This document shows, one piece after another, positions 91 through 62,004 of a DNA stretch of 64,000 bases (position 1 is its first letter; each line of letters begins with the position of its first letter). Made by a program: the position numbers and the translations under genes. The notes under the pieces are model-generated. The model did not search any database and was not told where the DNA came from. It saw nothing but the letters and a program-made list of their open reading frames with translations. The DNA is from Chondrosia reniformis (taxonomy: Eukaryota > Porifera > Demospongiae > Chondrillida > Chondrillidae): the NCBI GenBank assembly GCA_947172415.1, contig OX359190.1, positions 5,208,001-5,272,000 on the forward strand. The letters are read 5' to 3'.

Positions 91-2015
91 AGTTATATGT
101 ACTAGTTGTATGTACTAGTTGGTGTACTAATTCTATGTACTAGTTGTATGTACTAGTTGTATGTATTAGTAAATAAACTAGTTGTATGAACTAGTTGTAT
201 GAACTAGTTGTATCTACTAGTTGTATGTAATAGTAACAATCTGTATGTACTAGTTGTAGTTACTAGTTGTATATACTAGTTGTATGTACTAGTGCTATGT
301 ACTGATTGTGTGTACTAGTTCTTTGTACTAGTCGTATATACTAGTTGTATGTTCTAGTTGTATGTACTAGTTGTATGAACTAGTAACACTCTGCATTTAC
401 TGGTTGTAGTTACTAGTTGTATATACTAGTTGTATGTACTAGTTGCATCTACTAGTAACCAGTTGTATGTACTAGTTGTAGGTACTAGTTGTGTGTACTA
501 GTTCTATGTACTAGTCGTATATACTAGTTGTATGTACTAGTTGAATGTACTAGTTGTGTGTTCTAGTTGTATGTACTAGTCGTATATACTAGTTGTATGT
601 ACTAGTTTTATGTACCAGTTGTGCGTAATTGTTGTATGTATTAGTTATATTTACCAGTAGTAGTTACTAGCTGTATGTACTAGTTGTATGTACTAGTAAC
701 TAGTTTTATGTATTAGTAACTAGTTGTATGTACTAGTAACTAGTTGTATGTACTAGATATATATACTAGTTGTATGTACTAGATGTATGTACTAGTGGTG
801 TGTACAACTTGTATGTACAAGTAACTAAATGTATGTACTAGTTGTAGTTACTAGTTGTATGTACTAGTTGTATGTACTAATTGTATGAACAAGTAACTGG
901 ATGTATGATCTAGTTGTATGTACTAGTTGTATGTACTAATTGTATGTACAAGTAACTGGATGTATGATCTACTTTTATGTACTAGTTGTATGTCATAGTT
1001 ATATTTACCAATTGTAGTTACTAGTTGTATGTACTAGTTGTATGTACTAATTGTTTGTACTAGTAACTAGATGTATGTACTAGTTGTATGTACTAGGTGT
1101 TTGTACTTGTTTTATGTACTAAATACTAGTTGTATATACCAATTGTATGTACTAATTATAAGTTCTAGTTGTATGGACTAGTTCTTTGTACTAGCTGTAT
1201 GGTATTTATATGTACTAGTTATAAGTGTATGTGCTAGTTTTATGTAGTAGTTGTGTGTTGTGTGTTATATATACTGGTTGTATGTTGTAACAACCAGTTG
1301 TATGTATAACTTGTATGTATTAGTTGTATGTACTAGTTATATGTACTAGTTGTATATATGTACTAGTGACTGATCGTACGAACTAGTTGTATGTACTAGT
1401 TGTATGTAGTAGTTGTATGTACCATATGTATACAGTGGTTTTATGTACTAATTGTATATATTTGTATGTAATAGTTGTGTGTACTAGTTATGTACTTGTT
1501 GTATGTACTAGTTTTATGTTCTAGTGTTATGGAATCGTTCAGTGTACTAGTTCTAAGTACTAGTTGGATGTACTAGTTTTATGTACTAGTTGTATGTACT
1601 AGTTGTTCGTAATATTTGTAGAAACTATGTGTATGTGCTAGTTATATGTGGTAGTTGTGTATACTGGTTGCATGAACTAGTCGTATGTAATAGTTGCATG
1701 TACTAGTTGTATGTACTAGGTGCATTTACTAGTTTATGTACTAGGTGGGTCTAATTGTTGTTTGTACTAGTTATAATTACAAGTTGTCGTTAGATGTTGT
1801 ATGTACTAATCGTATGAACTAGTTGTATGTTGTGGTAAATAGTTGTATGTAGTAGTTGTATGTTCTAGTTATATAAACTAGTTGTATGTACTAGTAACTA
1901 GCTGTATGCACAAGTTGTTTGTGCTAGTGTTTTGAATTAGTACTGGTAATATTTAATAGTTGCTTGTATCTACAAGTATAAATTACATTTACTCTTTGTA
2001 GGTACTAGTTCTATG
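91..2015 (+). repeat. 13-bp minisatellite, plus polarity (block 1)
   Basis: This is a degenerate tandem array of GTATGTACTAGTT-like monomers, with scattered one- to several-base indels and occasional TAAC insertions. The monomer holds ACTAGT, itself a palindrome. The outer part (from about 440) is the reverse complement of satellite at 18.4-19.9 kb, so this block forms the outer left arm of the giant palindrome. It has no coding content. Confidence 0.95.
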
Positions 2016-3829
2016 AAAAATCTAAGATACCATTTTCCTACATGCTATATGCCTATTCTGTAAAAAGAGCCTAAAGGGGAACTAAACCTAAAGAGAGCTT
2101 TAGATGAAGATACAGTAGTCTTTTCTTCCTTCTTTTCCCTTCTTTCATCTTCTTCTCCACTGGGTCAGACAGCCGTTTCTGGGAATTCCACCCTTCATCA
2201 GTGATCCTTGGAGTCTTTGTCTTTTTCTTTATCTTGATCTTCTGTGAATCCTTGGCTCACTATGCTAAATCTAGAGGCCTTATATACACTATTTTGGCGC
2301 CAAAAGTTAAATAAGGTGTTAACTAAGACACATGATGAAATTTAATTTTATGAAAGGAATATAGGTCCAATTAACTTTTATGAATTAATTATAAATCTAT
2401 TAGTAATCTTGCTTGTACAGGTAAAACAGACTCAGCATAACTATAGACACAAGTAGGACATATTACGTAAGTCTACCCTTAGGTCTTCTAGTAGTAACAT
2501 TTCTTTGGAGGTGGGGTAACACAATATGGGGTAACACAAGACAGTCCTTAAGCATACTAGCTACTTTTTGCTTATACTTGATTCTAACTAGAGGCTGCCG
2601 GGATAGGAAGGTTTTAAAGGTTGACTTTAGCTTAAAGTATTTGTAACCCTGCTTAATAAGCCTACTGCATAACTGCAAACTTTTAGCCTGCAAACTTTTA
2701 GCCTGCAAACTGGAGAAGTCACTACATATTCTAGAATACCTAATTAGTTGTGAAATAAAGACACCTTAGGCTGGGGTATTAGGAATATTACTATCTAAAT
2801 GGGGGAAATTTACTATATCAAAGTTAAAGTCCTCTCGCTTATCATATACTTTAGTGATAAATTGATTGTTAGTAATGGTTATATCTAAGTCTAAAAAAAA
2901 GGGGGATTTTTAGGGCTGGTATTTGTCTTTTTAAGAATAAGTTCTTTGGGGTAAATATCACTAATTGACAGTTCAAAATCCTTGTTGTTAATACATAAAA
3001 GGTCATCAATATACCTATAAGTATTGGAAAATTTAATAGCTAGGGTGATGTTATCCTTAAGTAGTCATTTCATAAACTCATACTCATAGGCAAACAGAAA
3101 AAGATTAGCAACTACAGGGGCACAGTCAGTACCCATAGGGATACCTACACATTGCTTAAATACAGAACCGTCTACACATACATAAATGTTGTCAATAAGG
3201 TAATTAAAGAGCTCTACTAAATGAACAGCTGTGACTGCTTTATTGGAGACATTGTTAGACCAAAAGGCTTTATCCTGATAGACTTCTATATATTGGGACT
3301 TTCTACAGGTATAGGCACTATGAATTAGGTTAGTAATCTTATCTTTTAGTAGATTATGGGGGATCGCTGTATATAATGTAGAAAAATCAAAACTAGCTAG
3401 CTGGGCTTTTCTAGTGGGTATAGACCTAAGACTATCTAAGACTTCTAGTGGGTTTTCTACTATCCAAAAGGCATTAACACCAGTATTCCTATATATACCT
3501 AGGCAGTATTCTCTAAAATGTTTGAGAATTAGTCTGAGCGCCGAATTTAGAAATCTAGAAAGGGGTTTGGTAGTACATTTGTGAGAGGCGGCTATGAATC
3601 TGTAGCTCTAAGGGTTCTTATGTAGCTTAGGCATCCAGTAAAAAGAGGGAAGGTTACACCAGTCTGGTTTAGGTTCTAAGTTCTCTAGTTTTAAGAAATC
3701 TATGTGTTTCCTAATTAACTGTTGGGGTTCTACTGTACATTTAGCATAAGTGGAGGTACTGCCTAGTTCTTCATTAATAATTTGTCTATAGTAGCACTTA
3801 CATATAAAAATTGTCCTAGATACAACAAG
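2016..3829 (-). mobile_element. Penelope-like retroelement, copy 1 (degenerate)
   Basis: The element lies on the minus strand. Its 3' end is at 2016, where satellite ...TATG meets AAAAATCT, the same junction as copies 2, 3 and 4. It contains a 3' UTR with a hammerhead-like motif, then a broken reverse transcriptase frame. The right arm of the palindrome lacks it, so it inserted after, or was lost from, one arm. The far side is bordered by about 88 bp (3830-3917) that repeats 4270-4357, which suggests flanking filler copied during insertion. No GIY-YIG domain follows the RT. Confidence 0.85.
2163..2207 (-). ncRNA. Hammerhead-ribozyme-like motif, Penelope copy 1
   Basis: Read on the minus strand: GGATCA, then core CTGATGA, a stem II with GGG/CCC around a TGGAATT loop, core GAAAC, a four-base loop GGCT, then GTC and TGACC. 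A15.1-U16.1 and C15.2-G16.2 give the very short stem III known from Penelope-associated hammerheads. TGACC pairs with GG(A)TCA as stem I with one bulge. An A-A mismatch sits where stem II usually starts with G-C, so activity is uncertain. Confidence 0.6.
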
Positions 3830-3844
3830 TTGTCCTAGATACAC
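2463..3844 (-). pseudogene. Penelope-like reverse transcriptase, broken
   Basis: The minus-strand protein begins near 3844 and contains FYWMPKLHKNP (RT fingers), later FSTLYTAIPHNLL (motif A region), GIPMGTDCAPVVANLFLFAYE, YRYIDDLLCINN (motif C, catalytic DD) and QLIRYSRIC-type thumb residues. In-frame stops interrupt it (TAG directly after LHKNP; TGA after EYEFMK, where copy 5 reads GGA), and an A-run near 2890-2900 shifts the frame. The tail ends in RRPKGRLT with no C-terminal GIY-YIG endonuclease. The breaks make this copy inactive. Family assignment is firm; placement in the permuted (N-terminal endonuclease) Naiad-type clade is inference. Confidence 0.85.
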
Positions 3845-5935
3845 GTTGTATGTGCTAGTTGCTAGTTGTATACACTATTTGTATGTATTAGTTATATGTT
3901 CTAGTAGTATGTACTACTTGTATTTGTATGTACTAGTTGTATGTATATAATAGTTTTATGTACTAGTTTAATGTACTAGTTGTATGTACTAGTTGTAAGT
4001 AATACTTGAATGTACTTGTTGTATATACTAGTTTTATGTACTAGTCGCATGTACTAGTTGTGTGTACTCGTTGTATGCACTAGTTGTATGTTCTTGTGTT
4101 ATGGAATCGTTCTATGTGCTAGTTGTATGTGCTAGTTGTAGTACAAGTTGTATGCGCTAGTTGTATGTACTAGTTGTATGAACTAGTTGTATGTACTAGT
4201 TGTAGGTACTATTTATATGTACTAGTTATTTGTGTATACCCTAGTTGTATGTTCTAGTCTTATGGAATCGTTCTGTTTGTCCTAGATACACGTTGTATGT
4301 GCTAGTTGCTAGTTGTATACACTATTTGTATGTATTAGTTATATGTTCTAGTAGTATGTACTAATTGTATGGCCTCCTTTAATGTACTAGTTGAATGTAT
4401 ATATTAGTTAAGAACTAGTTGTATGGACTAGTTGTATGTACTAGCTGTATTTACTTCTAGTTGTATGTAATAGTTGCATGCACTAGTTGTATGTACCAAG
4501 TTGTATGTACTTGTTATATGTACATGTTGAATGAATTAGTTGAATTTACTTTGTGTGTATACTAATTGCATGCACTAATTGTCTTTACTAGTTGCATGAA
4601 CTCTTTCTATGTACTAGTTATATGTGTATTTTTAGTTATACGTATATATCCTAGTTATATGTACCACTTGGATGTACTAGTTATATGTACTAATTGTAAC
4701 TACTAGTTGTATGTACAAGTTTTATGTACCAGTTGTATGTACTAGTTGTATGGACTAGTTGCATGTACTAGTTGAATGCACTAGTTTTATGTACTAATTG
4801 TATGGACTCTTTCTAGGTACTAGTTATATGTGTATTTTTAGTTATACGTATATATCCTAGTTATATGTACCACTTGGATGTACTAGTTATATGTACTAAT
4901 TGTAAGCACTAGTTGTATGTACAAGTTTTATGTACTAGTTGTATGAACTAGTAGTATGTAGTAGCTGTATATATTAGTTGTATATTTCAACAAGTTCAAC
5001 TAGTAGAATTTACTACTTATATGTACTAGTTGTATGTACTAGTTGTATGTACTAGTTGTATGTACTAGTTGTATTTACTAGTTCTATGCACTAGTTGTAG
5101 GTACTAGTAACTAACTGTATGTACTAAATGTATATACTAGTTGGATGTACTAGCTTTATGTAGTTATATATAATACTTGTATGTAAGACTTGTGTGTAAT
5201 TGTTGTATGTACTAGTAATATCTACTAGTTGTAGTTACTAGTTGTATGTACGAATTGTATGTACTAGTTGTATGTACTAGTTTCATGTACTAGATACTAC
5301 TTTTATATACTAGTTCTATGTACTAGTTATATGTACTAGTTATGTGTACTAGTTTTATGTGCTAGTTGAATGTACTTAGTTTTATGTACTAGTTGTATGA
5401 ACTTGTAACCATATGTATGTACTAGTTGTAGGTACTACTTGTATGTACTAGTTGTCTGTAATAGTTGTTTGGACTAGTTATATTTATCAGTTGTAGTTAC
5501 TAGTTGAATGTACTAGTTATAAGTACTCGTTACTTGTTGTATGTTCTAGTTGTATGTATTAGTACTAGTTATATTTACTAGTTGGAGTTTCTAGTTGTAT
5601 GATTTCAATTGTAAGTAGTAGTTGCATGTTGTAATTGTATGTACTAATTGTATGTACTAGTTATATGCTAGTTGTATGTTCCAGTTGTATTTACTAATTG
5701 TATGGACTAGTAGTATATTATAGTTTTATGTATATTTATATGTATTAGTTATATGCGTCTGTGCTGATTATATGTACTAGTTGTATGTATTAGGACTAGT
5801 TATATTTACTAGTTGGAGTTTCTAGTTGTATGTTTTCAATTGTAAGTAGTAGTTGCATGTTGTAATTGTATGTACCAATTGTATGTACTAGTTATATGCT
5901 ACTTGTATGTTCCAGTTGTATTTACTAATTGTATG
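3830..5935 (+). repeat. 13-bp minisatellite, plus polarity (block 2)
   Basis: This is a continuation of the GTATGTACTAGTT array in the left arm. It matches 16225-18410 in reverse complement. It contains internal duplications: 3830-3917 against 4270-4357; a segment near 4600-4690 repeated near 4808-4900; and 5560-5690 repeated at 5790-5930. No gene is visible. Confidence 0.95.
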
Positions 5936-6420
5936 GAAGAGGAGACAGAGAAGAGGTTTTAGAAATATATCCCATAATTTTGCCTAATATCTCCCTCAGT
6001 TTTTGCTTAATATATCCAATTATTAAAAATATTGCCAATTATATCCCATAACATAACCCATAGTTTTACCCAATATACCCCTTAGTTTTGTCAAATATAT
6101 CCCATAGATTTTGACAAATATATCCTATAGTATATGCCATTATTTTTCCCTTATATATCTCATAATTTTGCCTAATATTTCCATTAGTTTTTGCTTAATA
6201 TATCCAATTGACCAGTATATCCCATAATGTTTGTCAAATATATCCCACAATATAACCTATAGTCTTAGCCCAATATATCCCATAGTTTTTGCAAATATTT
6301 CCCTTAATTTTTGCCAAATATATCCCATTATTTTGCCTAATATATTCCTCAGTTTTTACTTAATATATCCCAATATACCCCTTTGTTTTTGACACATATC
6401 CCATACACTGTGAAAATTGG
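5936..6420. repeat. AT-rich minisatellite (ATATCCCATA family), left arm
   Basis: The sequence is an irregular tandem array, period roughly 25-30 bp, of units such as ATATCCCATAATTTTGCC with CAGTTTTTG and AATATATC variants. Its exact mirror is at 15736-16220 in the right arm. It has no coding potential and is distinct from the 13-bp satellite. Confidence 0.85.
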
Positions 6421-6724
6421 TGGTTTGTATGATCCACCAAAAGTGGTGGTTTTGTCTTGTCCCTAATATAACACCACCAGTGGTATATAACAGACACCAA
6501 GCTGACATTAAAAGGGTGATAATGGGTATTGTTCAATTGGTTTATTTTGGACTGTAGATTAATGCTCAAATAGCAAGTCACATTATCTATTAATAATTAA
6601 ATTCATAGTTACCTATCAAATTAGATTCACTATTCCTTTAAAAAAACTTTAAAAAATGAATGTACATTGTTTGATATATACAATACAATAGAAATAGTAG
6701 TCAATAAGTAAAATAAATAAATAA
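6421..6724. other. Unique spacer with short hairpins, left arm
   Basis: The sequence includes inverted motifs around TTGGTGG / CCACCAA and ACCACCAGTGGT, which could form hairpins, and then AT-rich sequence. Its mirror lies at 15432-15735. A small minus frame exists here but resembles nothing I know and is probably chance. Confidence 0.4.
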
Positions 6725-7831
6725 CAAGTAGTTCGAGTTTAAAAAACTCGAGGGGCACCAGGCGCCCCTAAGTAAACTCGAACTACTTGGCTGGTTCTTA
6801 TAGATATCCGGTTAACCGATTTCCGATCGACTCTTGTTGTCTGTCAATTTTTCAAGGCCATATCTCGTAGAAAACGTTTTTGCGCAAGCTTTACGTTACA
6901 TAGTATTAGCAAGAGTGGTTTTTAAGTCCATTTCGTTCGTTCAATGTTCTACGCTAAGGAAGAGAAAGCTAATTTTAAGCTAGAAAACGAAAGCTAGCGC
7001 ACGTCCGCCATTTTTTGACAGATATATACAGTACAAGTTACAATATACTAAGGTAATCTAATATAAATAATATAATTAATTAAATGATTCATATGGCTCC
7101 AAGAAAGGCCCTAGAAACAAAATGGGCATATCATCATAACGTTTAGGGTATAAAACTCATTTTAAATTAAGGGATTTTTAATTTAGGCCTCCGTTTGTTA
7201 GAAAACAGAAGACAAAGTCTGCATATAAAAGGCCATAGGACTATAGAAAACCTATGGGAAATTTATATGCAAACAATGTGTTATATTGATAAAAACTTTC
7301 AGTTTGTCAGATAACTGTGAAAACAACATATATCATGGTACATGTGTATAAGAAACGTCTGACCAAGTTTTGCTTAATTAAATGAGCAAAATAATGAAGA
7401 TATAATGAAGAATTCAAAGTTACGATTGCGCAAGCTGGTGATGTATTGTGATGTTTTTCTAATGCGTCACCAACACCTTCGTATGTCGCTCCGTACACAC
7501 ATTTTGTGAATCATGTGACGTTGCGTAAACGTCACCGACTTGTTGCTAAAGAAGATCATCCTTCGAGAACGGCTATGACAAGTCGACGCTCTCCTACGAG
7601 AAGGAGCTACCGAACAGGCGAGTTGTAGCGAAGGTTAGATAAAGCGTTTTTGTATACGTTCCCGTCAAGTTTGAGGCAGAGTTGTTCCTATATTGATGCG
7701 AAAGACTGGATTCGTTTGGTCGACCGTATTACTTTGGTAATTTAAGCTCTGTCTTCTCTTCTTACGTTATCTGTTAATATTTTTACTTGTCCATGTGTAG
7801 GAATTAGGAGTGTTTGTTGCGATCATTACGA

Positions 7832-7992
7832 GAATAAACCTTTGTTGAGTGTCAGCAACATGAATTTACTAATTTCCTATTTATACTGAATTGTATTCCC
7901 ACTCCTCATATATTGCTGATGCATGAAGACCTCTGGGTCGAAACGTCCAGAATTAGTAAATTCATATTGCTGACTTTCAACTAGGCTTTATT
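7832..7992 (+). ncRNA. Degenerate hammerhead-like core in a long hairpin
   Basis: A core GACC-TCTG-GGTC-GAAACGTC is preceded by CTGATGCATGAA, which looks like CTGATGAA with a 4-base insertion. It is enclosed by long inverted arms: 7832-7873 is largely the reverse complement of 7951-7992, sharing AATTAGTAAATTCA and TTGCTGAC. GACC/GGTC forms stem II, and GAAACGTC is typical of hammerheads with minimal stem III. The interrupted CTGANGA core makes cleavage unlikely unless the insertion is tolerated. Confidence 0.35.
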
Positions 7993-8574
7993 CTTATCCA
8001 TGTTAGTACGTTTTCCATGTGTACTACATACAGTAACGAAATTGCTTATAGCGAATGTCTATAAGTATAGTGAAATACTTTGTTAGCTAATTACACTCAA
8101 GTACACTACACAGTGCAAGTTACTAGCAAATATATAAAATATTAAATTACAATCAAGTACTACACAGTACAAGTTACAAATTTAAGAGATCCAAGTGACT
8201 ATGTAATATTAAAATTACAATCAAGTGCTAGCTACACAGGGCAAGTTACAAATTTAAAGAGATCCAAGTGACCCCTAGGATAATCAGTATTTTAGACAGT
8301 ACAAGACTTTAGTCACACTAGTACTGTTGCAGGCTTTGAAATCCTCAACTACTGCATTGAGAGTAGTAGTTGATACAGATCATCCTATTGCAAGGTAGAA
8401 CACATGGCCTACCAATTACCTTTTCACACCTTAGTATAGACTGAAGATGATGCATCTGCATGCCATATATCAACAAAGGCTCCAGTATTAAAGGGGTCTC
8501 AGCTAATAACCACAGCAGATTTGATTTGCCTTGTGAGGGAGCTAAGAACACCGACAGTTGGTTGCATGCATTGG

Positions 8575-8639
8575 CATAATCAACAGGGTTAGAGACCATT
8601 TTGTAAGTTACAAAATGGTCTCTAACCCTGTTGATTATG
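8575..8639. repeat. Perfect 32-bp-arm palindrome
   Basis: The sequence reads the same on both strands around a single central base at 8607 (TTGTAAGTTACAA at the core, CAACAGGG/CCCTGTTG outside). It forms the inner closing point of the foldback arms of the 7029-8782 insertion. Confidence 0.85.
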
Positions 8640-8898
8640 TAACTTGCACTGTGTAGCTAGTACTTGATTGTAATTTTAATATTACATAGTCACTTGGATC
8701 TCTTAAATTTGTAACTTGTACTGTGTGGTACTTGATTGTAATTTAATATTTTATATACTTGCTAGTAACTTGCACTGTGTAGTATATATATATATATACA
8801 AGACTACGAACAGGAAGCCATACGTTAACATAATTTCTGAAAACAATATAGGGGCACCTATGGCGCCCCAAAAATAAAATATATAATAAAAATAAAGA

Positions 8899-9642
8899 AA
8901 AAAAAAAATTTTCTACAAAAATAGTGAATATGTAGGGATGGCACAAAAAGCACAGAAACAAGAAAGGGATGTTACACAGTGAAGCATTAGCTATATGCAT
9001 GAATCATACAACACCCTTGCTTGTAGGATTCATGTATATAGCTAATGCTTCACTGTGTAACATCCCTTTCTTGTTTCTGTGCTTTTTGTGCCATCCCTAC
9101 ATCTTCACTATTTTTGTAGAAAATTTTTATTTTTCTCTAGTTTCTGTACTTTTATGGAGCATAAGCTAGGAATTCGATTGTATCATTTAAACCCATTTTG
9201 GTTTCGCAATCTTCGACTGAATATGACGTCATTAAAATGGCGAATTTATCGAGGCCTTGACTCTGGGGCCATGAAAACCGTCATACTCAATAATAGCGTT
9301 ATCGCTCTCGCTTCTACAAAAGAATACAGCTCGGAAAATTTGCAATAGTTTCGTTTAACAATTAGTCCAAAAGCTTGTATAGCTTTTTAGTTATGGCTGA
9401 CGAAGAATAAGAAGAATATGAAGAAGACGAAAATGGGAATTTTTAAAGTTTATTATTTCGCCAGCGGGACATATTCGCTTGCTTTTAAGGTCTATTTAGA
9501 GTATGTATATTGTATATTTAGCTATACATAGCCTTGTTTTGTCGATTTTCGGCCTATTTCGGGATTTCGCTCCTATACCAATGTATGGGGAAAACGAAAA
9601 AACCGTATCATCCCTACATAGGGAGTACTACCGTACTCCCTG
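8899..9642 (+). mobile_element. Foldback element, copy A (744 bp)
   Basis: The element opens with a hairpin of roughly 100-bp arms (TTTTCTACAAAAATAGTGAA ... mirrored) enclosing a short loop. It then has about 500 bp of unique sequence and closes with the small hairpin AGGGAGTAC/GTACTCCCT followed by CTG. The right arm of the palindrome keeps the empty site (reverse complement around 15000-15030). TGTAGGGATG occurs in inverted orientation near both ends. The minus and plus reading frames through the hairpin are simply the stem read as protein. No transposase is encoded. Confidence 0.8.
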
Positions 9643-9710
9643 ATAATACGATAAATATAATATGTGTAACAAAAATATATGTATAAAAATTTTTTAAGGC
9701 AATTTAATTC

Positions 9711-10885
9711 AGCAACACTCTTGAAAATGTATTCCCTTGTTTCTGAGGGTGTTTACCCAAAAAAAACGAACTCAAAAAATGAAAAGACCTGCTCCAATCC
9801 AGTTGGATATGCAATGTTGAAAACCTAATGGGCAGCTGTCAGCAGCAATGCCACATTATGCGAAGCAACCACAAACAGTGGAATTTTATCCACTGATAAA
9901 AATAGTTGCTCACCTCTGCAAGTATGCCGGGTGTACTATTTGAGGGCAACTTGGCTGCCTCCTCCAGTGAAAGGTTCTCCTATATAAAAATAAAGAATTA
10001 ATTAAATAACTAAAACTACTTTTTGGATGTATCTTACCCATTAATAACATATTATATCATAAAAAAGAAAAAACTTGGATGGATCTTAAAATAAAAATGT
10101 ATGCATGCATAACAGGATAAAAAAGTGTGCATATATATGCATGCATAACAGGATCAAAAAATCTATATAATTACAAATGCGTATTACATCATGGATATGT
10201 ACTTACTGGAACCAGTAAACAGAGGTCTTCAATGTGGTTCCTCTGCTTGGTCTTCCTCATTAAAAGTAAGACCTGGCTTTTAAGGGCCTTGATATCATCT
10301 ATATTAATAACGTGCAATAGGATTTCAATAAATAAATACTTACACCAATTGATAAATAGTGAATGTATATACCATTGTCATCTAAAGATGGCAGCTCTTT
10401 TGTGATCTTCCTTTCTCGAACTGCCAGCTTAAGGATCTTTTCTCTCCACAATAGCCAAGCTGCCCCAAACATTTTTCGGTCACAAATTAATGAAAATTCA
10501 TGAATAACCTTTAAAAAGAAGACAAGCATATAAGTATATGTAGTAGTAATGAAAGCTATAAAACTTACATAATCACTTTCACCCAGGTAGGGGTACTTTT
10601 CAAGAAGAAGTAGAACATCAGTAGGATTATTTCTAATCTCATATTGCCTCCTTTTCCAGGTGAGTTCCATTACTTTTTTAATGACACTAGAATCAGTGTT
10701 TGTCTTGGCATGCAAGCTTTTCAACATGGCTTGATTTCTTTCATAAGGTTATCTTAGATAGATTTAGATCACTTGAAAGCAATTTGACTGGTCTCCTATT
10801 ATACTCTATGAAACGTGACCGTATTGCTTCAGCAACACCTGACTGTGCAATTAAGAGAGATGCATTGCCAATTCAATTACGTAAG
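9711..10885 (-). pseudogene. Spliced TE-associated gene, left-arm copy, broken
   Basis: This is the exact mirror of the right-arm copy; see 13776-14950 for domains. Exon equivalents on the minus strand are about 10750-10885, 10569-10748, 10373-10508, 10207-10298 and 9711-9979. It shares both frame breaks with the other arm, so the gene was already broken when the inversion duplicated it, or gene conversion spread the breaks. The only difference I noticed is SVDK here against SADK there. Confidence 0.5.
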
Positions 10886-11444
10886 GAATTATATATATAG
10901 CTAGTATTTTAATAAAGAGTTTGCAATATCAGTTCCCTTCATGACATCATCTTCTTGAATGTATACATATATTTATATGGTTAGGCATAATTGTGCCATT
11001 TATATATCATTTGCACAGGCGCCATATGACTGATCTGCATGTTTTTACGTTTTTTATAAACACTTTTAAGAGCAAATTTCGTTCTAACAGAAACGATTTG
11101 CTACCTTAAACTGGTATACATCAAAGCGCTTATTTATATATCAGCGAAATCTAAAATATGAGCGAGATTGAACAACCAATGTCGAAGATATAACGTGTTA
11201 AAAAAAGGGCCGATTTTAAAACTCTCAGACACTATGCGCTTAGTCTAGGAAAAAGCTAGAACTACGTTCTATACTTCATTGAAAAGGTTACAATGTATGC
11301 TTACAAAATTAAGAAGTCCGTTTCGATTCGCCCATCCGTTGAGAAGAAAACTGTGAAAATACACTTTTATAGATTAGTAAGTGCTATTTAATCTTTCATA
11401 TCTTGGGAAATAAAGCTCAGATGCCAACAGACTTCTTAATTTTT

Positions 11445-12230
11445 AGGGATAAGCTGCCTTATAGCAATCAACACGTAACAAGCGCTAATTAATAAAGAAT
11501 TTTCGTTTTCAATCGTTAGAGTGAATGCGTTATTTAGTGTTATCGTTTACACACCGGAAGAAATCAATTCTATTTAAATCTATTTTTGTATTATTTATTT
11601 GTTTATTAATTTATTTAAAATCGTCCATTGTTAAATTGGTTATAGGATATAGACTTAAAACAGCAGGCATCCTTTGGCTTAATTGATTTACGTATTGTAT
11701 ATAATCGTCTCGCTTCGTATCCTTGTCTTATAATCGACTCACTTCGTATCTTATTAATGTTTTATTTAATTGTCTCACTTTGTACTTATTGTATTATACA
11801 ATTAATGTCTAATATAAGTGAAAACGGGTTTTCAGGGCTCTTTGCATAGTAGCTATAACATGATTCACTTCTCTAGCTATTGTGGACTACTTATTTTTAC
11901 GTACCTTTTGTTAACAAATAGTTCGTATGCAGCAACTCTTGCAAAGCGGCAGTTGAACTTCAGAGCAATCTGATTATCGACTGATATCCCTCTTGGCTTT
12001 TTTGGGGGGCATGTTGTAGCCGAAATTTCAAAATTTGGCGATACTTAGTGTGAATAACACCTTACGGCAATCCTCGATCACTTGCGTCAACGTATAGTAT
12101 CAATCAATCAATCAATCACAACAGCGTTTCTCCTATGCAGGAGGTAGCCAGAATACATATTGTTATAATACCTACTGGACCTGTTGCTTTAAAATAAAGA
12201 TATACGAACTTAGATATATGCATGCACAGT
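11445..12230. other. Palindrome spacer, left part; possible exon on minus strand
   Basis: This is unique AT-rich sequence with no counterpart in the right arm. On the minus strand 12020-11905 reads KKPRGISVDNQIALKFN... and ends in ...ELFVNKR directly at a GTACGT donor, so it could be an upstream exon of the left-arm gene. No start or acceptor is secured. A short (AATC)n run lies at about 12098-12118. The remainder shows nothing recognisable. Confidence 0.3.
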
Positions 12231-12248
12231 TCTGTATAAGTTTTATCA

Positions 12249-12977
12249 TTAATTCAAGTCATCTTCCCATCTTTTCCGCGGTCTCCCTCTTGGTCTCTTT
12301 CCTGGCAGCTCCTCTATATACACCGTCTTCACCAGTCTCTCTTCTGGCATCTCTTCAATCTTCTTCATCCATTGCTTCTTCTTTCTGTTTACATTGTCAT
12401 AGGCTTTCTCCAGATCCACACATACCATGATCATACTTTTGTTCTTTGCAATAACTTTCTCACTTAACATTCTGACAGTAAACAGTTGATCCGTACAGCT
12501 TCTCCTCTTCCGAAAGGCCCCTTGTTCTTCCAAAATCTTCTCTTCCGTAATATCTCTCATCCTCTTGTCCAGTATCTTAGCATACACCTTCCCCGGTATA
12601 CTTAGCAGACTGATCCCTCGGTAGTTCTTACATTGCACTTTGCTGCCTTTCTTATGTACTGGCACCACTAGCGCTTTCCTCCAATCATCAGGCACCATGC
12701 TGTTCATCCATGCTCTGTTCATAATTCTATGCAACCATTCCACTACTACTTCACCCCCAGCCTTCAGCATCTCACCACTTATATCACACACCCCTGGCGT
12801 TTTCCTATTCTTTAGCCTAGCAATGCTTCTTCGTATTTCTTCTAAAGTAATCTCTTCTACAGTCTCCTCTACGGTCTCCTCCACCTGAACCTCCTCCCCT
12901 GTTACTTCCTTACTCACCCTTTGCTGTGGTACATCATTGGCCTGAAACAATGAGGCAAAGTACTCTTTCCATCTCAC
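12249..12977 (-). pseudogene. LINE reverse transcriptase, internally deleted
   Basis: The minus-strand frame of 242 residues starts MRWKEYFASLF and carries the typical LINE RT N-terminal blocks: ITLEEIRRSIARLKNRKTPG, EMLKAGG, VPDDWRKALVVPVHKKG, CKNYRGISLLSIPGKVYAKIL and QGAFRKRRSCTDQLFTVR. Motif A is VCVDLEKAYDNV. The frame then jumps within NRKKKQW to a C-terminal tail (ELPGKRPRGRPRKRWEDDL) that belongs at the very end of such ORFs, so motifs B, C (xADD), thumb and connection are lost. It is an RTE/Jockey-like lineage by look, exact clade not resolved. It sits alone in the palindrome spacer and cannot be active. Confidence 0.85.
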
Positions 12978-13216
12978 TTATAGTATACATGTATATAATA
13001 TCCCAGTTACACAACTTAGGATTTGTGCAATATTTACATCCGGCTATACAAGTTTACCGTTTGTGTTCAAATGTGTAAATCATCCCATGAATGTACTTAT
13101 TTGAAAATGAATATGATTTAAATGTTGAGAAATGGGAAAATTGTCTATGCGCTTAAGTTAGAAGATCCTCATAGTCATGTAGTCAGCTTCAATGGAATCA
13201 GTGAGTGTCATTTAGT
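12978..13216. other. Spacer, right part, nothing recognised
   Basis: This is unique AT-rich sequence between the LINE fragment and the inner end of the right palindrome arm. No frame, hairpin or repeat stands out. Confidence 0.4.
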
Positions 13217-13775
13217 AAAATTTAAGAAGTCTGTTGGCATCTGAGCTTTATTTCCCAAGATATGAAAGATTAAATAGCACTTACTAATCTATAAAAGTGT
13301 ATTTTCACAGTTTTCTTCTCAACGGATGGGGGAATCGAAACGGACTTCTTAATTTTGTAAGCATACATTGTAACCTTTTCAATGAAGTATAGAACGTAGT
13401 TCTAGCTTTTTCCTAGACTAAGCGCATAGTGTCTCAGAGTGTTAAAATCGGCCCTTTTTTTAACACGTTATATCTTCGACATTGGTTGTTCAATCTCGCT
13501 CATATTTTAGATTTCGCTGATATATAAATAAGCGCTTTGATGTATACCAGTTTAAGGTAGCAAATCGTTTCTGTTAGAACGAAATTTGCTCTTAAAAGTG
13601 TTTATAAAAAACGTAAAAACATGCAGATCAGTCATATGGCGCCTGTGCAAATGATATATAAATGGCACAATTATGCCTAACCATATAAATATATGTATAC
13701 ATTCAAGAAGATGATGTCATGAAGGGAACTGATATTGCAAACTCTTTATTAAAATACTAGCTATATATATAATTC

Positions 13776-14950
13776 CTTACGTAATTGAATTGGCAATGCA
13801 TCTCTCTTAATTGCACAGTCAGGTGTTGCTGAAGCAATACGGTCACGTTTCATAGAGTATAATAGGAGACCAGTCAAATTGCTTTCAAGTGATCTAAATC
13901 TATCTAAGATAACCTTATGAAAGAAATCAAGCCATGTTGAAAAGCTTGCATGCCAAGACAAACACTGATTCTAGTGTCATTAAAAAAGTAATGGAACTCA
14001 CCTGGAAAAGGAGGCAATATGAGATTAGAAATAATCCTACTGATGTTCTACTTCTTCTTGAAAAGTACCCCTACCTGGGTGAAAGTGATTATGTAAGTTT
14101 TATAGCTTTCATTACTACTACATATACTTATATGCTTGTCTTCTTTTTAAAGGTTATTCATGAATTTTCATTAATTTGTGACCGAAAAATGTTTGGGGCA
14201 GCTTGGCTATTGTGGAGAGAAAAGATCCTTAAGCTGGCAGTTCGAGAAAGGAAGATCACAAAAGAGCTGCCATCTTTAGATGACAATGGTATATACATTC
14301 ACTATTTATCAATTGGTGTAAGTATTTATTTATTGAAATCCTATTGCACGTTATTAATATAGATGATATCAAGGCCCTTAAAAGCCAGGTCTTACTTTTA
14401 ATGAGGAAGACCAAGCAGAGGAACCACATTGAAGACCTCTGTTTACTGGTTCCAGTAAGTACATATCCATGATGTAATACGCATTTGTAATTATATAGAT
14501 TTTTTGATCCTGTTATGCATGCATATATATGCACACTTTTTTATCCTGTTATGCATGCATACATTTTTATTTTAAGATCCATCCAAGTTTTTTCTTTTTT
14601 ATGATATAATATGTTATTAATGGGTAAGATACATCCAAAAAGTAGTTTTGGTTATTTAATTAATTCTTTATTTTTATATAGGAGAACCTTTCACTGGAGG
14701 AGGCAGCCAAGTTGCCCTCAAATAGTACACCCTGCATACTTGCAGAGGTGAGCAACTATTTTTATCAGCGGATAAAATTCCACTGTTTGTGGTTGCTTCG
14801 CATAATGTGGCATTGCTGCTGACAGCTGCCCATTATGTTTTCAACATTGCATATCCAACTGGATTGGAGCAGGTCTTTTCATTTTTTGAGTTCGTTTTTT
14901 GGGTAAACACCCTCAGAAACAAGGGAATACATTTTCAAGAGTGTTGCTGA
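13776..14950 (+). pseudogene. Spliced TE-associated gene, right-arm copy, broken
   Basis: Exons inferred from frame and splice signals: about 13784-13912 (GVAEAIRSRFIEYNRRPVKLL), about 13914-14092, 14153-14288, 14363-14454 and 14682-14950. The middle exons read KRRQYEIRNNPTDVLLLLEK then YPYLGESDY, spliced to VIHEFSLICDRKMFG, then DDIKALKSQVLLLMRK. The last holds TPCILAE and, one base out of frame, GEQLFLSADKIPLFVVASHN with AAHYVFNIAYP. Phases agree (0; 0; 1; 0). The pattern (RR..I...P....L..YP.L, then VFN..YP near the end) resembles uncharacterised proteins common in invertebrate and fish genomes and thought to be repeat-associated; this is recall, not a search. Frame breaks lie near 13912-13930 and 14745. 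Confidence 0.5.
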
Positions 14951-15042
14951 ATTAAATTGCCTTAAAAAATTTTTATACATATATTTTTGTTACACATATT
15001 ATATTTATCTTATTATTTATTTTTATTATATATTTTATTTTT

Positions 15043-15431
15043 GGGGCGCCATAGGTGCCCCTATATTGTTTTCAGAAATTATGTTAACGTATGGCTTCCT
15101 GTTCGTAGTCTTGTATACATATATATATATATATCTGTCAAAAAATGGCGGACTTGCACTAGGTTTCGTTTTCTAGCTTAAAATTAGCTTTCTCTTCCTT
15201 AGCGTAGAACATTGTACGAACAAAATGGACTTAAAAACCACCCTTGCTAATACTATGTAACGTAAAGCTTGCGCAAAAACGTTTTCTACGAGATATGGCC
15301 TTGAAAAATTGACGGCCAACAAGAGTCGATCGGAAATCGGTTAACCGGATATCTATAAGAACCAGCCAAGTAGTTCGAGTTTACTTAGGGGCGCCTGGTG
15401 CCCCTCGAGTTTTTTAAACTCGAACTACTTG
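15043..15431 (-). mobile_element. Hairpin-ended MITE, right arm, uninterrupted
   Basis: This is the reverse-complement copy of 6725-8870 without the inserted block. It has a GC-rich palindrome at 15043-15061, a TA microsatellite at about 15115-15135 (the empty site of the 1.75-kb insertion), the conserved core, and the CAAGTAGTTCGAG hairpin at 15367-15431. At about 389 bp it gives the true size of the short family member. Confidence 0.7.
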
Positions 15432-15735
15432 TTATTTATTTATTTTACTTATTGACTACTATTTCTATTGTATTGTATATATCAAACAATGTACAATCAG
15501 TTTTTAAAGTTTTTTTAAAGGAATAGTGAATCTAATTTGATAGGTAACTATGAATTTAATTATTAATAGATAATGTGACTTGCTAATTGAGCATTAATCT
15601 ACAGTCCAAAATAAACCAATTGAACAATACCCATTATCACCCTTTTAATGTCAGCTTGGTGTCTGTTATATACCACTGGTGGTGTTATATTAGGGACAAG
15701 ACAAAACCACCACTTTTGGTGGATCATACAAACCA
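15432..15735. other. Unique spacer with short hairpins, right arm
   Basis: This mirrors 6421-6724. It is AT-rich with the CCACCAA/TTGGTGG inverted motifs. No gene is supported. Confidence 0.4.
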
Positions 15736-16220
15736 CCAATTTTCACAGTGTATGGGATATGTGTCAAAAACAAAGGGGTATATTGGGATATATTAAGTAA
15801 AAACTGAGGAATATATTAGGCAAAATAATGGGATATATTTGGCAAAAATTAAGGGAAATATTTGCAAAAACTATGGGATATATTGGGCTAAGACTATAGG
15901 TTATATTGTGGGATATATTTGACAAACATTATGGGATATACTGGTCAATTGGATATATTAAGCAAAAACCAATGGAAATATTAGGCAAAATTATGAGATA
16001 TATAAGGGAAAAATAATGGCATATACTATAGGATATATTTGTCAAAATCTATGGGATATATTTGACAAAACTAAGGGGTATATTGGGTAAAACTATGGGT
16101 TATGTTATGGGATATAATTGGCAATATTTTTAATAATTGGATATATTAAGCAAAAACTGAGGGAGATATTAGGCAAAATTATGGGATATATTTCTAAAAC
16201 CTCTTCTCTGTCTCCTCTTC
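15736..16220. repeat. AT-rich minisatellite (TATGGGATAT family), right arm
   Basis: This is the mirror image of 5936-6420: irregular units of TATGGGATATATT with CAAAAACT variants. Coordinate sums stay at 22156 through this region, so the two arms have the same length here. Confidence 0.85.
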
Positions 16221-16224
16221 CATA

Positions 16225-19200
16225 CAATTAGTAAATACAACTGGAACATACAAGTAGCATATAACTAGTACATACAATTGGTACATACAATTACAACATG
16301 CAACTACTACTTACAATTGAAAACATACAACTAGAAACTCCAACTAGTAAATATAACTAGTCCTAATACATACAACTAGTACATATAATCAGCACAGACG
16401 CATATAACTAATACATATAAATATACATAAAACTATAATATACTACTAGTCCATACAATTAGTAAATACAACTGGAACATACAACTAGCATATAACTAGT
16501 ACATACAATTAGTACATACAATTACAACATGCAACTACTACTTACAATTGAAATCATACAACTAGAAACTCCAACTAGTAAATATTACTTGTACTAATAC
16601 ATACAACTAGAACATACAACAATAACGAGTACTTATAACTAGTACATTCAACTAGTAACTACAACTGATAAATATAACTAGTACAAACAACTATTACAGA
16701 CAACTAGTACATACAAGTAGTACCTACAACTAGTACATACATATGGTTACAAGTTCACACAACTAGTACATAAAACTAAGTACATTCAACTAGCACATAA
16801 AACTAGTACACATAACTAGTACATACAACTAGTACATACAACTAGTACCTACAACTATTACCAACATATATTTACTAGTACATACAATTAGTACATACAA
16901 CTAGTAACTACAACTAGTAAATATAACTAGTACATACCATAATTACACACAGTTAGTACATACAACTATTACATATAACTAGTACATAGAACTAGTATAT
17001 AAAACTAGTATCTAGTACATGAAACTAGTACATACAACTAGTACATACAATTATTACATACAACTAGTAACTACAACTAGTAGATATTACTAGTACATAC
17101 AACAATTACACACAAGTCTTACATACAAGTATTATATATAACTACATAAAGCTAGTACATCCAACTAATATATACATTTAGTACATACAGTTAGTTACTA
17201 GTACCTACAACTAGTGCATAGAACTAGTAAATACAACTAGTACATACAACTAGTACATATAAGTAGTAAATTCTACTAGTTGAACTTGTTGAAATATACA
17301 ACTAATATATACAGCTACTACATACTACTAGTTCATACAACTAGTACATAAAACTTGTACATACAACTAGTGCTTACAATTAGTACATATAACTAGTACA
17401 TCCAAGTGGTACCTATAACTAGGATATATACGTATAACTAAAAATACACATATAACTAGTACCTAGAAAGAGTCCATACAATTAGTACATAAAACTAGTG
17501 CATTCAACTAGTACATGCAACTAGTCCATACAACTAGTACATACAACTGGTACATAAAACTTGTACAACCAACTAGTACTTACAATTAGTACATATAACT
17601 AGTACATCCAAGTGGTACATATAACTAGGATATATACGTATAACTAAAAATACACATATAACTAGTACATAGAAAGAGTTCATACAACTAGTAAAGACAA
17701 TTAGCGCATGCAATTAGTATACACACCAAGTAAATCCAACTAATTCATTCAACATGTACATATAACAAGTACATACAACTTGGTACATACAACTAGTGCA
17801 TGTAACTATTACATACAACTAGAAGTAAATACAGCTAGTACATACAACTAGTCCATACAACTAGTTCTTAACTAATATATACATTCAACTAGTACATTAA
17901 AGGAGGCCATACAATTAGTACATACTACTAGAACATATAACTAATACATACAAATAGTGTATACAACTAGCAACTAGCACATACAACGTGTATCTAGGAC
18001 AAACAGAACGATTCCATAAGACTAGAACATACAACTAGGGTATACACAAATAACTAGTACATATAAATAGTACCTACAACTAGTACATACAACTAGTTCA
18101 TACAACTAGTACATACAACTAGCGCATACAACTTGTACTACAACTAGCACATACAACTAGCACATAGAACGATTCCATAACACAAGAACATACAACTAGT
18201 GCATACAACGAGTACACACAACTAGTACATGCGACTAGTACATAAAACTAGTATATACAACAAGTACATTCAAGTATTACTTACAACTAGTACATACAAC
18301 TAGTACATTAAACTAGTACTACAACTAGTACATAGAACTATTACATAAAACTAGTATATACATACAACTAGTACATACAAATAAAACTAGTACATAGAAC
18401 TAGTACCTACAAAGAGTAAATGTAATTTATACTTGTAGATACAAGTAGCACAAGCAACTATTAAATATTACCAGTACTAATACAAAACACTAGCACAAAC
18501 AACTTGTGCATACAGCTAGTTTCTAGTACATACAACTAGTTTATATAACTAGAACATAAAACTACTACATACAACTATCTACCACAACATACAACTAGTT
18601 CATACGATTAGTACAAACAACATCTAACGACAACTTGTAATTATAACTAGTACAAACAACAATTAGACCCACCTAGTACATAAACTAGTAAATGCACCTA
18701 GTACATACAACTAGTACATGCAACTATTACATACGACTAGTTCATGCAACCAGTATACACAACTACCACATATAACTAGCACATACACATAGTTTCTACA
18801 AATATTACGAACAACTAGTACATACAACTAGTACATAAAACTAGTACATCCAACTAGTACTTAGAACTAGTACACTGAACGATTCCATAACACTAGAACA
18901 TAAAACTAGTACATACAACAAGTACATAACTAGTACACACAACTATTACATACAAATATATACAATTAGTACATAAAACCACTGTATACATCTGGTACAT
19001 AGTACATACAACTACCACATACAACCAGTACATACAACTAGTTCGTACGATCAGTTACTAGTACATATATACAACTAGTACATATAACTAGTACATACAA
19101 CTAATACATACAAGTAATACATACAACTGGTTGTTACAACACACAACCAGTATATATAACACACAACACACAATTACTACATAAAACTAGCACATACACT

Positions 19201-20053
19201 TATAACTAGTACATATAAATACTATACACAACTAGTACAAACAACTAGTCCATACAACTAGAACTTATAATTAGTACATACAATTGGTATATACTACTAG
19301 TACATACACCTAGTACGTACAACTAGTACATACATCTAGGTACTAGTACAAACAATTAGTACATACAACTAGTACATACAACTAGTAACTACAATTTTTA
19401 AATATAACTAGGACACACAACTAGTACATAAAACTAGATCATACATCCAGTTACTTGTACATACAATTAGTACATACAACTAGTACATACAACTAGATCA
19501 TACATCCAGTTACTTGTTCATACAATTAGTACATACAACTAGTACATACAACTAGTAACTACAACTAGTATATACATTTAGTTACTTGTACATACAAGTT
19601 GTACACACCACTAGTACATACATCTAGTACATACAACTAGTATATATATCTAGTACATACAGCTAGTTACTAGTACATACAACTAGTTACTAATACATAA
19701 AACTAGTTACTAGTACATACAGCTAGTACATACAGGTAGTAACTACTACTGGTAAATATAACTAATACATACAACAATTACGCACAACAGTACATAAATT
19801 TAGTACATACAACTAGTATATACGACTAGTACATACAACTAGAACACACAACTAGTACATTCAACTAGTACATACAACTAGTATATACGACTAGTACATA
19901 GAACTAGTACACACAACTAGTTACTAGTAGATGCAACTAGTACATAAAACTACTATATACATACAACTAGTACATACAAATACACCTAGTACATAGAACT
20001 AGTACCTACAAGGAGTAAATGTAATTTATACTTGTAGATACAAGTAGCACAAG
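16225..20053 (-). repeat. 13-bp minisatellite, minus polarity (outer right arm)
   Basis: Here the array reads AACTAGTACATAC, the reverse complement of the left-hand blocks. It pairs with 440-5935. A segment around 18340-18455 (ending CAAGTAGCACAAGCAACTATT) recurs at 19945-20053, exactly where polarity flips back to plus. The palindrome ends at about 19940. Confidence 0.95.
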
Positions 20054-21709
20054 CAACTATTATATGTACTAGTTTTACGTATTAGTTGTATGTACTAGTT
20101 GTATGTACAAGTTATATGTACTAGTTGTATTTATTAGTTGTATGTACTAGTTGAATGTACTAGTTGTTTGTACTAGTTCTATGTACTAGTTGCATGTACA
20201 AGTGTTATGCACTATTTATATGTACTAGTTGTAAGTACTAGTTGTAGGTTCTAGTACTCGTTGTAACAGGTACTAGGTAGGTTCTATAGTTGTATGTACT
20301 AGTTCAATGTACCAGTTGGATGTTCTAGTTTTTTTCTAGTTGCATGCACTATTTATATGTACTAGTTACCTTTGTATGAATTAGTTTTATGTAGCAGTTG
20401 CGATTACTAGATATATGTACTAGTTGTGTGTACTAGTTGTATGTAGTGGTTGTATGTAGTAGTTGTATGTACTAGTTCAATGTGCAAGTTGTACTAGTTG
20501 TAAGTACTAGTTGTAGGTTCTAGTACTCGTTGTAACAGGTACTAGGTAGGTTCTATAGTTGTATGTACTAGTTCAATGTACCAGTTGGATGTTCTAGTTT
20601 TTTTCTAGTTGCATACACTATTTATATGTACTAGTTACCTTTGTATGAATTAGTTTTATGTAGCAGTTAAGATTACTAGATATATGTACTAGTTGTGTGT
20701 ACTAGTTGTATGAACTATTTATATGTATGCGTTGTATGTACTGGTTGTAAGTACTAGCTGTATATACTAGTTGTAAGTACTAGGTGTAGGTTCTAGTAGT
20801 AGTTATACTAGGTACTAGGTTGGTACTATTTGTATATACTAGTTGTATGGACTAGTTGTATGTACTAATTAATTGTTGTACTTGTTGTATGCACTCATAC
20901 TTGTTGTATGTACTAGTTGTAAGTACTAGTTTTATGTACTCAATACTTGTTGTGTGAACTAGTTGTATGTTCTAGTTTATGTTCTAGTTGTATATACTAT
21001 TTATATGTACTTGTTACCTGTGTATAGACTAGTTTCATATAGTAGTTGTGTGTACTAGTTATATGTGTGTGTAAAAAGTATATGTACTAGTTGTATGTAC
21101 AAGGTGTATGTAATAGTTATAGGTTCTAGTACTAGTTATTGTGGTTAACAGGTGGGTACAAGTTGTATGTACTATCTGTTTGTACTATTTGTATGTATTA
21201 ATTGTATGTACTAGTTGATTTTACTTGTTGTATATACTAGTACAAGTTATATTTACTAGTTGTAGGTACAAGTTGTATGTAGTAGTTGCATGTGGTGGTT
21301 GTATGTACAAATTGCATATACTGGTTGTATGTAATAGTTGCATGTACTAGTTATGTACCAATTGTATGAACTAGTTGTTTGTATATATAACTTGTATGTA
21401 CTAGCTGTGTACTAGTTGTATATACTAGTTTTATGTGGTATTTTTATGTTCATCTTTTAAACTAGCTGTATGAACTAATGTCTTGTTGTTCATACTAGTT
21501 GTATGTATGAGTTTTATGTACTCTTTCTATGTACTAGTTGCATGTACTAGTTTCTTGTTGTATGTACTAGTCGTATGCACTGGTTGTGTGTGCTAGTTGT
21601 ATATATTACTTCTTTGTCCTAGTTGTATGTACTAGGTGTATGTACTATTAATATATACTAGTTATATGTGTATGGTCTAGTTGTATGTACTAGTTGTATG
21701 TACCAGTAG
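20054..21709 (+). repeat. 13-bp minisatellite, plus polarity (block 3)
   Basis: This is GTATGTACTAGTT-type satellite. Most of it is the first copy of a long direct duplication whose second copy lies at about 25915-27344. A 230-bp piece is also locally duplicated (about 20220-20450 against 20490-20720). Nothing else is visible. Confidence 0.95.
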
Positions 21710-22290
21710 TGCACACGACTGGAACATACAACTTGAACCTACAACAAGGAAATATTGCTAGTACCTACAACTAGCAAACATAACTAGTACTAGTACTTAA
21801 ATCTAGTACACACAACTAGTATATACAACAATTGCATGCAACTAGTACATAAGACTAATACATACAACTAGTGTATACAATTAGAACCTACAACTAGTAG
21901 ATACAATTAGTACACACAACCTAAAACTATAGCTAGTACTAGTACATACAAATAGTACATACAAATAGTACATGCAGTTAGTACATACAATTAGTACAAA
22001 CAACTAGGATATACATACAACTAGTACATACAACTAGGTCATACAACTAGAACTACAAATATAATTTAAAACTAGTCCAAAAATGAGAACATAAAACAAG
22101 TACATTCAACTACTAGTACATAGAACGAGGACATACAACAAGTACATACAGCTAATACATAAAACTAGTACATAGAACTAGTACGTACAACTAGTACATA
22201 CAGCTAGATACTAGTACAATCAACTAGTACATACAAAGAGTAACTACAACTTATAAACACTACTTGTACATATAACAAGTACGTACACAT
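20070..22290 (+). repeat. Long direct duplication in satellite, copy 1
   Basis: This is nearly identical to about 25915-27970, including the polarity switch, rare variants such as GTTTTTTTCTAGTTGC, and the run TAGAACTACAAATAT. Copy 1 is longer by the extra local 230-bp repeat. It shows segmental duplication after the satellite had diverged. Confidence 0.8.
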
Positions 22291-22745
22291 ATAATTACTA
22301 CATATAAATATTACATACAAATAGTGTATACAACTAGTTCATACAACTAGTACATACAATTAGTACATACACTAGTACATACAACAATTACCCACAACTA
22401 GTTCTTACACCTAGTACATACAACTAGTATCAATTACATACAACTAGTGCCTACCTAGTACTTAGAATAACCAATACTAGAACCTACAACTAGTAAATAT
22501 AACTAGTACATACAACAATTACACACAACCAATACAATCAACTAGTACATACAAATAGTACAAACAACTAGTACATACAACTAGAACCCACCTAGTACCA
22601 GGTACAACTAGCACTAGAACCAACAACAATTGCATACAACTAGTACATAATACAATTATACATAACTAGTACATACAACTAGTACATACTATAGGATATA
22701 CATACAACTAGTACTATACTAGAATCTAGTATATCTAGTACTAGT
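21710..22745 (-). repeat. 13-bp minisatellite, minus polarity (block 4)
   Basis: Polarity switches at CAGTAGTGCACACGACTGG (about 21708) and back near TATACTAGAATCTAGTATA (about 22730-22745). Both switch points are small palindromes. The first about 600 bp are duplicated at 27350-27970. Confidence 0.9.
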
Positions 22746-27344: not shown

Positions 27345-27970
27345 GACTGGAACATACAACTTGAACCTACAACAAGGAAATATTGCTAGTACCTACAACT
27401 AGCAAACATAACTAGTACTAGTACTTAAATCTAGTACACACAACTAGTATATACAACAATTGCATGCAACTAGTACATAAGACTAATACATACAACTAGT
27501 GTATACAATTAGAACCTACAACTAGTAGATACAATTAGTACACACAACCTAAAACTATAGCTAGTACTAGTACATACAAATAGTACATACAAATAGTACA
27601 TGCAGTTAGTACATACAATTAGTACAAACAACTAGGATATACATACAACTAGTACATACAACTAGGTCATACAACTAGAACTACAAATATTATTTAAAAC
27701 TAGTCCAAAAATGAGAACATAAAACAAGTACATTCAACTACTAGTACATAGAACGAGGACATACAACAAGTACATACAGCTAATACATAAAACTAGTACA
27801 TAGAACTAGTACGTACAACTAGTACATACAGCTAGATACTAGTACAATCAACTAGTACATACAAAGAGTAACTACAACTTATATACACTACTTGTACATA
27901 TAACAAGTACGTACACATATAACTACTACATATAAATATTACATACAAATAGTATATACAACTAGTTCAT
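25915..27970 (+). repeat. Long direct duplication in satellite, copy 2
   Basis: This is the partner of 20070-22290, colinear through the polarity switch at about 27345. Confidence 0.8.
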
Positions 27971-60721: not shown

Positions 60722-60763
60722 TTTTCTTCCTTCTTTTCCCTTCTTTCATCTTCTTCTCCACTG

Positions 60764-62003: not shown

Positions 62004-62004
62004 A

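Follow-up and report, generated by a model that had tools for sequence, protein, structure and literature searches.

A near-palindrome in the kidney sponge Chondrosia reniformis is probably a genuine inverted duplication, with arms diverged by about 1.2%, in the middle part of chromosome 2, which is rich in satellite. It is contained in a stretch of 64,000 nucleotides, hereafter the window, which corresponds to C2 (chromosome 2):5208001-5272000, that is 5.21-5.27 Mb, of the assembly odChoReni1.1 (a 117,379,552-base genome in 15 contigs). Because a transposon copy of a family that we denote E lacks its 5' end here, and the unbroken site is preserved in paralogues, the centre of the palindrome is a break inside E. 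The broken end is joined to inverted E sequence with 3 bp common to both, most likely by fold-back or template-switch inverted duplication. The breakpoint, the site before the event and the later insertions are all readable in this single, well-resolved sponge inverted duplication. The event is of a known kind, unusually well resolved, in what may be a centromere region of a sponge; the context points to a satellite that could be centromeric in a non-bilaterian animal, and suggests, in a form open to testing, how strand-flipping satellite arrays might arise.

Results

Anatomy of the palindrome

A first-pass annotation of the window had described a near-palindrome between positions 440 and 19940, with arms of about 6.7 kb around a 1.77-kb spacer. 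The structure is real, and its limits agree closely with those positions. The left arm (~430-11445, minus strand, outer edge good to ~50 bp) and the right arm (13216-19944, plus strand, outer edge good to ~25 bp) are inverted about an unduplicated spacer of 1770 bp (11446-13215), which consists of the body of E and a fragment of a long interspersed nuclear element (LINE). Self-comparison yields a single collinear inverted chain of three blocks, 355-2015/20059-18393 (93.6% identity including gaps), 3888-7028/18384-15128 (91.8% including gaps) and, innermost, 9643-11445/15016-13216 (99.4%). Clean pairing of the arms stops at about 483/19921, followed by a 26-bp length difference and then some 30 paired bases to about 430/19944. 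Excluding gaps, the arms differ by substitutions at 78 of the 6511 aligned positions (98.8% identity), which, going inwards from the outermost satellite, are distributed as 38/1535, 18/1990, 1/426, 11/656, 1/103 and, in the inner block, 9/1801; the gapped identity in the satellite is only 92-94% because repeat units have been gained or lost. The symmetry of the arms is beyond chance: background inverted matches of satellite against satellite show 70-75% identity, and two arm pieces of about 900 bp have mirror scores of 804 and 821.5, compared to a maximum of 448.5 in 26 null pairs.

Each arm contains a 13-bp satellite, a minisatellite with units of 22-23 bp, a high-copy element resembling a miniature inverted-repeat transposable element (MITE), and genic sequence. 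In the right arm, the array of the 13-bp unit (ACTAGTACATACA) occupies 16221-20011 on the plus strand, reaching just past the arm edge, and is preceded by the minisatellite (15791-16219, plus) and the MITE-like element (15042-15425, plus). In the left arm, the satellite (91-5935, minus) extends beyond the outer edge to position 91 and is broken by an insertion, the minisatellite lies at 5940-6372 (minus), and the equivalent of the MITE-like element is split by a second insertion. These contents were recognised in the first-pass annotation; what was there called a gene is only part of one, a truncated stretch that derives from a low-copy gene and includes presumed introns (right copy 13648-15016, plus; left copy 9643-11013, minus).

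The central junction and transposon E

E is a repeat family present at many places in the genome, with imperfect terminal inverted repeats (TIRs) that start with CACTGG and CACAGG. The window copy (11443-13647, plus) is short of the first 22-23 bp. Its final 432 bp make up the innermost part of the right arm, as an inverted copy of the same 432 bp (11014-11445, minus) does in the left arm. Matches were fetched from 18 distinct places, and 11 of these copies could be aligned to the first bases of E. All 11 carry an additional 22-23 bp at the 5' end compared to the window copy, so that the window copy is broken just where the 5' terminal repeat ends on its inner side. A 2-bp target duplication accompanies 10 of the 11 copies; one flank is common to three of them, so that the set represents nine independent insertions, eight with the target duplication. 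At the inversion junction (11442-11446), the inverted E sequence of the left arm runs into E a short way in from the latter's 5' end; the sequence across the join is CTTCTTAATTTTTAGGGATAAG, in which, read by eye, the overlap TTA is common to both partners. The spacer passes without a break into the right arm but not the left, and on this point, the spacer being a transposon body that runs into one arm, the first-pass annotation was silent. A lone mismatch adjoins the join, at position 13221 of the right arm; there, the left arm has the base found in all 12 other aligned E copies, and the mismatch therefore arose later, in the right arm.

The cut at 11443, at the inner edge of the 5' TIR, could be due to chance or could hint at a failed transposition. 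Within E, the LINE fragment (12101-12978, minus) includes an open reading frame (ORF) with an RVT_1 domain (12249-12977, minus) and a (TGAT)n-type tail; TATAGTAT stands on both sides of it, at 12093 and 12979, as an apparent target duplication of 8 bp. This LINE fragment may have entered either before or after the inverted duplication.

The site before the duplication

In a genome search with the inner arm, in which the best 40 of 134 candidates were scored, the gene part was matched at four paralogous loci elsewhere (C8, C2 and two on C4). The C8 and C2 paralogues lack E and read GGTTT/CAAATGATATA, where the slash marks exactly the point at which the 3' end of E meets the gene in the window; both C4 paralogues stop short of this site. 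Gene sequence upstream of the E site is present in the C8 and C2 paralogues and is gone at the window junction. Thus, the loss of sequence past the break that is expected of a fold-back or template-switch duplication is seen both in the first 22-23 bp of E and in the upstream part of the gene. The window also lacks about 160 bp found between the two matched pieces in the C8 and C2 paralogues, and hence the genic sequence is a fragment; a Pfam scan of two ORFs in its right copy gave no match. The MITE-like element at 15042-15425 is missing at C8 and at both C4 loci, and the C2 locus stops short of it. Because the C4 and C8 copies pass straight from the gene to position 15426 onward, the element is an insertion that predates the duplication.

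Insertions confined to the left arm

The first-pass annotation had noted three insertions in the left arm that are lacking in the right arm and took them to order the events. We confirm all three (2016-3887, 7029-8789 and 8893-9642), which are most likely younger than the duplication. The first (minus strand) is a reverse-transcriptase fragment with a weak RVT_1 match (E-value 0.0016, below the Pfam cut-off), which may be Penelope-like, judging from its motif; its part 2121-3423 is 97.5% like 60722-62008. The second is a high-copy element with inverted ends CAGTACAAGTTAC and GTAACTTGCACTG. A 610-bp stretch of it, 8000-8609, occurs at many genome places at 98-99% identity, and at several of these part of it is repeated in inverted orientation some 60 bp away, which suggests a young foldback-like family. 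The third is an element also found at 34513-35280 and partly at 45166-45769.

Recent origin and probable conversion between the arms

A run of 1209 bp is identical between the arms. Under a uniform substitution rate, such a run was obtained in none of 20,000 simulations over the whole arms and with P of about 0.0005 within the inner block alone. The run spans the presumed introns and a part of E, and is 92-98% identical to the paralogues and to other E copies. Given that this stretch is not slow to change by comparison with those copies, gene conversion from arm to arm after the duplication is the likely cause, as the data suggest. Selection on coding sequence was considered as the source of this identity and rejected, the run including presumed introns and E and being 2-8% removed from its paralogues and other E copies. 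A very recent origin or gene conversion had been put forward at the outset; the 1.2% divergence, together with a stretch of identity longer than a uniform rate would allow, supports both. No mutation rate for C. reniformis was applied, and the divergence is stated without an age in years. In their very high identity and long identical run, the arms resemble the gene-converting palindromes of mammalian Y chromosomes; the sponge case differs in being much smaller, with 98.8% identity over aligned positions, no intact gene recognised, and conversion that is suggested by the run.

The satellite block

The palindrome lies within a satellite block in the middle of the chromosome, a setting not mentioned in the first-pass annotation. 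By k-mer density, the 13-bp unit makes up about 55% of the window. An exact 39-mer of the satellite has 332 forward and 324 reverse matches genome-wide, and its reversed control has none. Among the matches listed, those on C2 lie at 4.81-6.11 Mb, and the satellite is mid-chromosomal on 13 of the 14 chromosomes, with one outlier on C3. The placement on C2 comes from the shorter repeats, whose lists hold about 100 places at most and stop within C3, C11 or C9, ahead of C14. For a 65-mer, the full list comprises 41 matches in 23 arrays, of which 22, distributed over 12 of the 14 chromosomes, have relative positions of 0.31-0.52 along the chromosome; the outlier is at C3:7.00 Mb. This sole outlying array, in C3:7000001-7030000, has several kilobase-scale direct repeats about 12-14 kb apart beside it. 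The region C3:7.00-7.03 Mb was intended as a control and, containing the array, is a poor one.

The satellite repeatedly changes strand. Counting the palindrome, main strand flips account for seven of the nine listed in 84 kb of C2 and for two of the six listed in 30 kb of C3, the others being runs of 4-12 k-mer hits; two of the C2 flips lie within duplicate segments. With 28-base seeds, the palindrome is the only inverted pair longer than 1 kb at 85% identity or more in the 84 kb of C2, and no inverted pair of at least 300 bp at 85% was found in the 30 kb of the C3 block. At eight other flips, mirror similarity ranged from 29 to 445.5 and was not above that of the 26 null pairs (mean 274, maximum 448.5), a small null of the same flip type; the two flips with values of 112.5 and 29 presumably have no satellite within 900 bp. 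The idea that all strand flips are decayed palindromes is therefore unsupported, the eight flips being no more mirror-similar than the null.

Of the E copies on C1-C11 among the best 40 matches, 12 of 27 fall inside satellite-block limits that span 12.5% of those chromosomes and were chosen by us from the listed satellite matches. For the MITE-like element, used as a control, the corresponding count is 8 of 28 (also best 40 matches), and the enrichment of E in the block is thus only a modest excess.

Discussion

These results are consistent with the following course of events. The starting state would be the gene fragment beside the 13-bp satellite, the MITE-like element and E having entered this fragment before the break. 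A break or a stalled fork in E, just inside the 5' TIR, would then have left an end that joined inverted E sequence via TTA, and some 6.7 kb would have been copied in the opposite sense, from the gene fragment through the MITE-like element and the minisatellite into the satellite. The new end would have been rejoined within the satellite, where repeats provide homology everywhere, and the three left-arm insertions would have arrived after the inverted copying. No selected function of the palindrome is expected.

The human fold-back duplications of Hermetz et al. 2014 (PMC3907307) offer the closest comparison that we draw for the junction. In the sections of that study on sequenced junctions, an unduplicated spacer is reported for all 21 (766-70,466 bp) and microhomology of 2-8 bp for 13 of the 21; the sponge spacer is within that size range, and a few base pairs are likewise common at the junction. 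As far as those sections describe them, the human cases are large, some beside terminal deletions, whereas the sponge case is interstitial, with arms of about 6.7 kb in satellite, and its new end was, we infer, captured again in the satellite.

Several observations weigh against the reading of a fold-back or template-switch duplication. The palindrome is known here from the assembled sequence. Among 50,000 random joins of window sequence, 6.5% share at least 3 bp, which makes the 3-bp TTA weak evidence. When nine substitutions in the inner block were polarised with the paralogues, seven appeared derived in the right arm (with the outgroups split on one of these) and two in the left, a split that does not single out either arm as the original. 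Finally, the right outer end is scarred, and the left array has no visible scar. Beyond the right arm lies a piece (19945-20062, plus) that matches the arm interior, 19923-20062 resembling 18324-18463 at 94.3% of 140 positions; the satellite then flips strand, and a segment adjoining the arm (20056-22428, minus) begins a direct duplication of 25734-28056 at 90.9% identity, rising to 99.1% over 439 bp against 25900-26338.

The polarity matters for the route of repair. If a resected end had folded back, the right arm would be the original: the spacer and the right arm form one uninterrupted stretch, and the human fold-back model, in the part of Hermetz et al. (PMC3907307) that sets it out, assigns the spacer to the original copy. 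If instead one or more replicative template switches had occurred, the left arm would be the original, and the presence of scars at the right outer end with none at the left suits this route, with serial template switches. We consider the two about equally probable.

Among other explanations of the palindrome, an assembly artefact, in which the assembler set head to head either two haplotypes or the parts of a molecule that was chimeric or folded back, is unlikely and would nonetheless survive best. The 1.2% difference between the arms and their differing insertions could be allelic. However, a folded read is expected to give near-identical arms, at odds with 78 differences and three insertions; the join interrupts a known transposon at one defined base; and each arm has its own mutations, which can be polarised with the paralogues. 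There is no N in the window, hence no gapped scaffold join. The worry over a chimera or an assembly fold, raised when the palindrome was first noticed, is thereby largely answered. According to the Chondrosia genome paper, hifiasm was run on HiFi reads, Hi-C served for scaffolding, and an alternate haplotype was kept separate.

Non-allelic homologous recombination between inverted satellite arrays, rather than joining at microhomology, would also produce an inverted segmental duplication, and both outer ends indeed lie in the 13-bp satellite, with strand flips abundant nearby; nevertheless, the join at the centre lies within E rather than in satellite, with only 3 bp in common, such that we view this origin as very unlikely. 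We assign a similarly low standing, and deem it highly improbable, to the palindrome being part of a functional centromere core. Fission-yeast central cores are flanked by inverted repeats, and the location within a mid-chromosome satellite block would fit, but among the best matches scored the inner-arm unit and 15438-15790 are whole only at this locus, the 30 kb of the C3 block yielded no inverted pair of at least 300 bp at 85%, and the structure is young. A single foldback-type transposon with the arms as its long terminal inverted repeats is extremely improbable and was rejected: the arms do contain tandem arrays, and fly foldback elements have long inverted repeats composed of tandem short repeats, yet among the best 40 of 134 candidates the two arms alone match the 1801-bp inner arm in full, and the same holds for 15128-15790 (best 40 of 1222); the pieces are scattered, the final 432 bp of E recurring at many places and the gene part at four others (best 40 of 134); and the unit holds elements with ends of their own, around an E broken at the centre.

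The preferred reading, an inverted duplication through a break in E, places the event in a block of 13-bp satellite that, from its mid-chromosome position and strand flips, is a candidate (peri)centromere. A wider view, less likely than not, can be entertained: the 13-bp blocks would be sponge (peri)centromeres organised as strand-flipping macro-dyads in an animal only distantly related to beetles, microhomology-mediated inverted duplication would flip the strand, and the palindrome would be a recent flip still homogenised by conversion between its arms. Because the eight other flips show no mirror similarity, inverted duplication as the driver of strand flipping rests on the single palindrome.

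Macro-dyads formed from satellite arrays have, according to the authors of the Tribolium work, been documented exclusively in that genus (PMC13081366). On the evidence of the parts of that paper that describe the arrays, which are of (peri)centromeric satellites, the two systems are alike in having satellite-rich chromosome regions, strand flips every few kilobases and the potential to form long hairpins. The sponge monomers are of 13 bp, unlike the beetle element of about 110 bp; inversion sites are conserved in the beetle, whereas the eight other sponge flips were not above background; and the flip at the sponge palindrome can be traced back to a single event centred on a gene fragment and a transposon. 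In the open-licence literature, we found no macro-dyad satellites beyond the Tribolium work and its citation, and, in the part of that literature covered, no report of a sponge centromeric satellite. Centromeres are not mentioned in the main text of the Chondrosia genome paper; another study gives Hi-C centromere estimates for unicellular relatives of animals and, in its relevant sections, names no sponge centromeric satellite (PMC10232365).

Other features of the window

An Rfam match to the Histone 3' stem-loop was found at 43433-43479 on the plus strand, with 35.4 bits against a gathering threshold of 34; by eye, the open frames around it are not histone-like, no search having been made. 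A reading frame of 692 amino acids at 51423-53501 (plus) contains RVT_1, and its solved relatives are a Reverse transcriptase-like protein (E-value 3.4e-22) and the R2 retrotransposon protein (7.7e-19). The segment 50646-51752 is duplicated at 59222-60331 with 93% identity. A separate inverted pair of 255 bp, 45678-45932 and 46568-46822, is 100% identical, with its members 635 bp apart.

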